Assembly (NCBI GenBank): GCA_018609125.1
Contig: JABAYF010000020.1
Coordinates: 24,563 to 88,562, forward strand
Reading direction: 5' to 3'
DNA length: 64,000 nucleotides
DNA from: Candidatus Nanopelagicales bacterium
Lineage (GTDB): Bacteria; Actinomycetota; Actinomycetes; S36-B12
The translations under genes were made by a program, and so were the position numbers. A model generated the notes under the pieces. The model searched no databases. It had not been told where the DNA came from and saw only the letters and a program-made list of their open reading frames with translations. Below, one piece after another: positions 6,044-7,702 of the stretch. How positions within the stretch are numbered: position 1 is the first letter of the stretch; every line of letters begins with the position of its first letter.

Positions 6044-7504
6044 TCAGTAGCGGTAGTGATCAGGCTTGTACGGCCCAGCGACATCGACACCGAGGTATTC
6101 CGCCTGCGGCTTCGACAATTCGGTGAGTTGCACGCCGAGGGCATCAAGGTGCAGGCGTGCGACTTTCTCGTCGAGGTGCTTGGGTAGGACGTGGACGCCA
6201 AGGGGGTAGTCATCGGGCCGGGTGAACAGCTCAATCTGGGCGAGAACCTGGTTGGTGAAGGAGTTACTCATCACGAACGAGGGGTGGCCGGTGGCGTTAC
6301 CCAGGTTGAGTAGGCGCCCTTCAGACAGCACGATGATCGAACGCCCGTTGGGGAAGGTCCACTCATCCACCTGCGGCTTAATGACTTTACGGACGATGCC
6401 GGGAACCGCGGCGAGGCCTGTCATGTCGATCTCGTTATCGAAGTGGCCGATGTTGCCCACGATGGCCTGATGCTTCATGCCCGCCATGTGCTCAGCGGTG
6501 AGTACGTCGTAGCAGCCGGTTGCGGTGATGAAAATATCGGCGCTGCCCAGCACATCTTCGATTCGAGCGACCTGGTAGCCGTCCATGGCTGCCTGCATCG
6601 CACAGATGGGATCGATTTCGGTGACGATGACGCGGGCACCTTGGCCGCGGAGCGAATCCGCACTGCCCTTGCCTACGTCGCCGTACCCGGCCACGACGGC
6701 CACCTTTCCACCGATCAGGGTGTCGGTGGCTCGGTTGATGCCGTCAATAAGGGAGTGGCGGCATCCATATTTGTTGTCGAACTTGCTCTTAGTCACCGAG
6801 TCGTTGACGTTGATCGCGGGGAAGAGCAAAGACTGCTCTCGCATCATCTCGTACAGGCGGTGAACACCGGTGGTGGTTTCTTCGGTGACACCGAGAATTC
6901 CCTGGGCGATGGTGGTCCACCGCTGCGGGTCCTCGGTCAGCGACCGACGCAGCACCTCGAGGACGACGGCGTATTCCTCCGAAGTGCTGGCATCAGCCGA
7001 GGGCACGACACCTGCGGCCTCGAACTCGAGGCCCTTGTGAACGAGCATGGTTGCGTCGCCACCGTCGTCGAGGATCATGTTCGGGCCAACACCATCGGGC
7101 CAGCGCAGCACCTGCTCGGTGCACCACCAGTACTCCTCGAGTGATTCACCCTTCCAGGCGTAGACGGGCACACCCTGCGGGTTGTCCACGGTGCCGTCCC
7201 GACCCACGACGACGGCAGCAGCGGAGGGATCTTGGGTGGAGAAGATGTTGCAGGATGCCCAACGGACCTGCGCGCCGAGGTCGACGAGAGTTTCGATGAG
7301 GACAGCCGTCTGGACGGTCATGTGCAGGGAGCCGGTGATGCGTGCACCGCGTAGCGGCTGAGAGGCCCCGAATTCAGCACGCATAGCCATCAGGCCGGGC
7401 ATCTCGTGCTCGGCAAGGCGAATTTCGTCGCGGCCGAGTTCGGCAAGGGCGAGGTCGGCGACCTTGTAGTCAACAAAGGGTGCGCTGGGGTTGGACGTGG
7501 ACAT
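6044..7504 (-). CDS. ahcY: Adenosylhomocysteinase
   Basis: [56 protein letters not shown] site; C-terminal KPDHYRY. Confidence 0.98.
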
Positions 7505-7507
7505 GTG

Positions 7508-7604
7508 CGAAGCCTCGATTCTCAGTGACGTTGATCGCGCGGGCCGGTGCGGGCCGGGCGACAGAGCGGGAGGGTGCTGCGCCGGTAAACGTCACGAGGC
7601 TTCG
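7508..7604 (-). promoter_or_regulatory. Structured ahcY leader: long imperfect stem sequestering the Shine-Dalgarno (candidate cis-regulatory RNA)
   Basis: 10-bp perfect inverted repeat CGAAGCCTCG (7508-7517) / CGAGGCTTCG (7595-7604) plus 7-bp TGACGTT (7526-7532) / AACGTCA (7588-7594); the SD-like GAGG lies inside the stem, 8 nt before ATG. Confidence 0.6.
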
Positions 7605-7702
7605 ATGGCTTCCGGATATTGCTGAGGGGAGTCTATCGTGCCCGTCCACATATGTCGGTTTGAGCGGTGACGCTCGGCAGAAGTGCCGAAACGCTGATCA
7701 CC

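Follow-up and report, generated by a model that had tools for sequence, protein, structure and literature searches.

A conserved hairpin in the ahcY leader of Candidatus Nanopelagicales is a candidate translational switch

The window analysed here, a 64,000-nucleotide stretch of DNA, carries on its minus strand a gene for adenosylhomocysteinase (ahcY, 6044-7504), identified by its match to NCBIfam TIGR00936 (E 1.7e-185). AhcY clears SAH, a toxic by-product of methylation and an inhibitor of methyltransferases. Genes for a CPBP-type protease, mtrA and mtrB come after ahcY, which is divergent from comF, a hibernation factor gene and secA. Read on the minus strand, the ahcY leader contains CGAAGCCTCG (7604-7595) and TGACGTT (7594-7588), followed by a 55-nt loop, AACGTCA (7532-7526), CTGAGAAT (7525-7518), CGAGGCTTCG (7517-7508), CAC and the ATG start codon (7504-7502). 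The first-pass annotation drew this leader as a long hairpin of 10 and 7 perfect base pairs with a one-sided CTGAGAAT bulge, and the drawing is exact: all 17 pairs are Watson-Crick. The Shine-Dalgarno (SD) sequence GAGG, as read from the sequence (7516-7513), lies in the 3′ arm of the 10-bp helix and ends 8 nt upstream of the ATG. Its proposed occlusion is borne out by the predicted fold of the full leader, in which it is paired with a probability of about 1.

The 17-nt 5′ arm forms a duplex of -24.8 kcal/mol with the downstream leader. In 1000 dinucleotide shuffles, compared by duplex energy, the mean was -13.7 (sd 2.3) and the best value -25.5, so that such arms are expected by chance in roughly 0.1% of cases. 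The whole fold of 7490-7620 is modestly unusual (z -1.88), and 10 of 200 shuffles folded equally well. The motif GAAGCC is present twice within 7598-7612, at 7612-7607 and at 7603-7598, and either copy could pair with the SD arm GGCUUC; in the minimum-energy fold the first copy (7612-7607) does. As a conserved element the long hairpin was rejected. The 7-bp helix (arms 7588-7594 and 7526-7532) and the 10-bp length of the outer helix were not seen in any relative whose leader was read, L002 and L004 of the same genus among them, and the two-helix hairpin that had been proposed as the regulatory structure thus appears specific to the window.

What relatives share is a shorter element, which we call N, of about 36 nt (29-36 nt), inside the 5′ arm region of the long hairpin. 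It consists of a variable, covarying stem, P1, that encloses the near-invariant core CAWCGAAGCCUCGUGMC. In the window the conserved hairpin, formed by P1 and an inner helix P2, spans 7582-7615; it overlaps the long hairpin yet differs from it. In the predicted fold the 5′ strand of P1, CCGGAAGC (7608-7615), pairs with GUUUACCGG (7582-7590), which has a bulged A at 7586. The core is CATCGAAGCCTCGTGACG (7590-7607), and its final G closes P1. Covariance model R1 matches the window at 7582-7617 with an E-value of 6.0e-8 for the genome, a rough figure, as the models were calibrated briefly. In an alignment of 54 distinct relatives, whose genomes are mostly metagenome-assembled (MAGs), the core is near-invariant and 13 of 36 columns are invariant. 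Variants of the P1 stem include GCGAAC/GUUCGC, GCGGAC/GUCUGC, ACGAAC/GUUCGU, GACGG/CCGUC and CCGGAAAC/GUUUGCCGG, among others. With P1 and P2 as drawn, 93.6% of alignment cells are paired, compared with 17-39% when the partners are slid. Two-sided changes, counted uncorrected for phylogeny, were found in 20 cells, as against 6.9 in shuffles, and these changes fall in P1. A leader peptide was also considered and rejected, as both its start and its stop are unconserved in the ahcY leaders of relatives.

The inner helix P2 (7595-7604) is the hairpin CGA-AGCC-UCG, with AGCC as its loop, and coincides with the 10-nt 5′ arm of the long hairpin. It is extended by the pairs C7607/G7593 and A7606/U7594 around a bulged U7605. 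Columns 14-16 and 21-23, which form P2, are invariable, and evidence other than covariation within them is therefore needed. Such evidence, beside the predicted fold, comes from column 24, usually a U that pairs with A12. Nine leaders have another base there: A in six, C in two and G in one. In all nine, the base at column 13 (U, G and U respectively) restores a pair by means of a shifted bulge. The nine leaders belong to families f1, f4, f6 and f7 of the order. The exception is the divergent leader L023, which has C at both columns.

Part of the core has an alternative partner. The segment CCUCGUG (7593-7599) is complementary to CACGAGG, that is, to the SD and the bases immediately upstream of it. 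CACGAGG is present in 28 of 73 distinct ribosome-binding sites (RBSs) and in 9 of 135 background sites, a background figure that is too high because some of its sites belong to antisense frames that overlap the motif. Where U replaces C at column 19 of the loop, the RBS contains GAGG in none of six leaders and GAGA in five of six; in leaders with C19, GAGG is found in 58 of 77 RBSs and GAGA in 20 of 77. One U19 leader, L264, fits this pattern poorly. In L075, CUCGAG in the RBS matches an altered loop. The complement is placed between the SD and the AUG in L046 and L047, and upstream of the SD in L004. The summed pairing energy of each loop with its own RBS was -892.8, compared with -835.7 (sd 9.9) when RBSs were reassigned, and none of 2000 reassignments reached the observed value. 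Relatedness of the genomes inflates permutation tests of this kind; the separate co-changes carry more weight. In many leaders the RBS complementarity is partial (for example L007, L024 and L033-L035). Three divergent leaders of family f6 (L272-L274), which have no full-length model match, retain CGAAGCCUCGUG and CACGAGG. We also observed CACGAGG at the SD of L267, a leader that lacks hairpin N and carries element U, described below.

Upstream of N in the window we predict a -10-like hexamer, TAGACT (7630-7635), and a -35-like hexamer, CCGACA (7653-7658), which agrees with TTGACA at four of six positions and is 17 nt from the -10 hexamer. The predicted transcription start lies near 7623. The combination CCGACA-N17-TAGACT was not among the promoters listed by a strict promoter scan. 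In relatives, 34 of 87 leaders have a -10-like box 12-22 nt ahead of the core, compared with 2.3 in shuffles. The position of these boxes just before the core suggests that N is probably at the extreme 5′ end of the ahcY transcript.

Element N is widespread in the order, which we take to be Candidatus Nanopelagicales, a group of mostly aquatic Actinobacteria. Of 166 genomes searched from the order, 91 have an R1 match to N, and these fall in 24 of 40 genera. Of the 94 matches, 86 are on the same strand as ahcY and 22-124 nt upstream of it. Six others are at contig edges or beside a broken gene, and the four of these that are readable (G066, G053, G085 and G089) likewise adjoin ahcY. The two weakest matches (G037:C18 and G051:C4) look like chance. 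When 395 genomes sampled from the class were searched, R1 gave nine matches outside the order, all weak and none convincing; the one inspected, the best (L150), is located in a gyrase-subunit-A-like frame. With filters off, searches of 40 ahcY leaders from outside the order and seven from inside gave a best E-value of 0.25. An exact-pattern scan of 84,980 species found 48 stretches, of which 47 are actinobacterial or taxonomically unlabelled MAG records. The remaining one, in a Myxococcales MAG, is apparently antisense in a thiolase-like gene and was judged to be chance. The exact motif was seen in two MAG records titled Bifidobacterium breve (L159 and L194), titles that are probably wrong. 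The hosts of N are widespread, mostly uncultured Actinobacteria in which gene control has been little studied.

The first-pass annotation could not fit the leader to the SAH or SAM riboswitch consensus by eye, and a search of Rfam 15 agrees, with no family match in the whole window. Between 7200 and 7900, up to an E-value of 10, the search returned one CRISPR-repeat model only, by chance. The leaders of relatives likewise gave no family match, and weak matches to sR44, mir-4436 and naRNA4 were dismissed as chance. In 40 genomes from the order, no match to the SAH riboswitch model (RF01057) exceeded the cut-off; the 14 genomes included as controls yielded no positive control. A sub-threshold match to this model (34.6 bits, cut-off 37) was observed at G023:C24:98384-98461, in a genome with ahcY on another contig. 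The SAM/SAH riboswitch model (RF01727) matched none of the 40 genomes and none of the control genomes, and a cmscan of single leaders also gave no match. In the open-licence literature, to which our search was confined (subscription papers were outside its scope), we found no description of element N and none of an SAH-responsive RNA for actinobacterial ahcY. To our knowledge, few SAH-responsive RNAs are known.

The design nearest to N is that of the SAM/SAH riboswitch, which is likewise a small 5′ hairpin with loop-SD pairing that acts on translation of a methionine-cycle gene within a single order (PMC7367207, PMC4239095). In N, complementarity and co-changes point to the same pairing between hairpin loop and SD. 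The SAM/SAH riboswitch differs in its gene and clade, metK in Rhodobacterales, and in that its ligand closes the SD (PMC7367207). The loop of N, unlike that of the SAM/SAH riboswitch, also makes the conserved helix P2, and it lies at a long and variable distance from the SD. The SAH riboswitch controls ahcY and responds to the signal that we favour for N (PMC4239095), but it is a 78-position model of different sequence and fold. SAM-VI of Bifidobacterium is, like N, actinobacterial, translational and associated with one methionine-cycle gene, and its competing stems P0 and P1 set access to the SD in a comparable manner (PMC6914780); it is, however, a three-way junction on metK (PMC6914780) and has no Rfam match here. 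The SAM-Chlorobi motif (RF01724) resembles N in being a leader RNA limited to one clade, in metK and ahcY operons (PMC2864571), but that clade is Chlorobi and Rfam again gave no match here. SAH-responsive control of ahcY is known elsewhere from the SAH riboswitch and SahR, and in Corynebacterium McbR is an SAH-responsive repressor of sulphur amino-acid genes (PMC4239095). An early survey of actinobacterial methionine operons reported no conserved RNA structures upstream of them (PMC1262725).

N would work like a translational riboswitch, although it matched none of the known classes against which it was searched. It combines a conserved aptamer-like core with an alternative pairing that would control the SD, and would presumably bind a metabolite. 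Because both alternative pairings co-change in relatives, P2 and the core:SD pairing look like two selected states, and as both use CCUCGUG they cannot coexist. The presence of a conserved, covarying element in this leader upholds the earlier suggestion of a cis-regulatory RNA there, and an on/off translational switch is still the best reading of it. Thus N is probably a previously undescribed RNA switch controlling ahcY. In the ON state, P1 and P2 would be formed, with CCUCGUG kept within the hairpin and the SD free. In the OFF state, CCUCGUG would leave P2 and pair with CACGAGG around the SD. In other leaders P1 would be compatible with both states; in this genome the OFF pairing appears lengthened to 17 bp and would intrude into P1, so that the long hairpin of the window would be a local form of the OFF state. 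Without the 3′ arm, the best predicted fold of the window leader contains exactly P1-P2. With the 3′ arm, the long SD-closing hairpin wins (-43.7 compared with -30.7), and, as this OFF state is predicted to be about 13 kcal/mol more stable, switching in this genome would be possible only during transcription.

The near-invariant bases outside both pairings (the loop AAG and the W and MC bulges) stay unpaired, which suggests a bound partner, and these bases would most likely hold it. We favour a metabolite, with SAH as the first candidate, on two grounds: N has ahcY as its sole target, and control of ahcY by SAH-responsive elements is known from elsewhere. A small ligand would stabilise P1-P2, so that high SAH would turn ahcY on. 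We infer both the existence and the identity of the ligand, as well as the direction of switching. We put at about an even chance the full proposal that the ahcY mRNA opens with N acting as a two-state translational switch with SAH as its leading ligand. The size of N is a counterpoint to a ligand, as aptamers are usually longer than 29-36 nt. If it is a switch, an element of about 36 nt with two conserved alternative folds would rank among the smaller natural ones and would be easy to probe.

A variable stem on a short hairpin whose loop and bulges are invariant, together with a single target gene, is also typical of binding sites for proteins. A regulator or AhcY itself might hold or block P1-P2, with no metabolite bound by the RNA; we consider this unlikely, as the conserved bases must also serve both pairings and no candidate protein was identified. 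The polarity could instead be reversed, with SAM, adenosine or homocysteine stabilising an H-type pseudoknot of P1 and CCUCGUG:SD and so turning ahcY off. P1 can coexist with the SD pairing, the presumptive pseudoknot loop L1 (CAWCGAAG) is conserved, and the SAM/SAH riboswitch shuts the SD in this way (PMC7367207). Such a pseudoknot would nevertheless break P2, on which the co-changes of columns 13 and 24 indicate selection, and the core lies anywhere from 20 to 110 nt from the start codon; we therefore regard reversed polarity as a little less probable than a protein site.

There might be no sensor, in which case N would be a fixed structure that determines how strongly ahcY is translated or how stable its mRNA is, or a structure responsive to temperature. 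The SD-closing helix of this genome is indeed very stable, but five families keep two alternative pairings as well as unpaired bases, which a fixed hairpin would not need, and we find this explanation improbable. Strong conservation close to a predicted -10 box could also reflect a DNA element, either an operator just past the promoter or the beginning of an opposite-strand gene, for which the complement reads GAGG-CTTCG-ATG/TTG. This is very improbable, since the arms of P1 co-change around a constant core and the loop co-changes with a distant RBS. The opposite-strand start, an ATG or TTG with an SD on the plus strand, was rejected: the antisense frames range from 4 to 295 codons, with random lengths and no shared product.

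Two further elements were found in ahcY leaders. Element U, in family f1, is a second hairpin, in which a covarying outer stem encloses the invariant CCGGAGCCCUGG, with an AGCC loop that resembles that of N; it sits just past the -10 box. Some genera carry U upstream of N; genera g2 and g11 carry U but lack N. Element A, from other orders and families of Actinomycetes, is a stem of about 50 nt (CCGGCGC...GCGCCGG) with GAUG in the junction and an inner GACCC/GGGUC hairpin. The leaders scanned gave no Rfam match to U or to A, and homology between the two elements was rejected, as model R2, built for A, gave nothing credible in U-bearing leaders. The finding of several leader RNAs at a single gene deserves further study. 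A bolder reading, tentative and in our judgement doubtful, is that Nanopelagicales have a new, very small class of SAH riboswitch that turns ahcY on by hiding an anti-SD in a hairpin, and is used alone, with U or in place of it, while other actinobacterial lineages use A, the whole amounting to several independent inventions at ahcY. U was observed in leaders L014, L003, L005-L008, L012, L015, L016, L020, L057-L065 and L267-L271, and A in L211, L222, L227, L233, L214, L226, L215, L210 and L239-L250. In 118 genomes R2 gave 12 strong matches to A, of which 10 are directly upstream of ahcY in the same genome.
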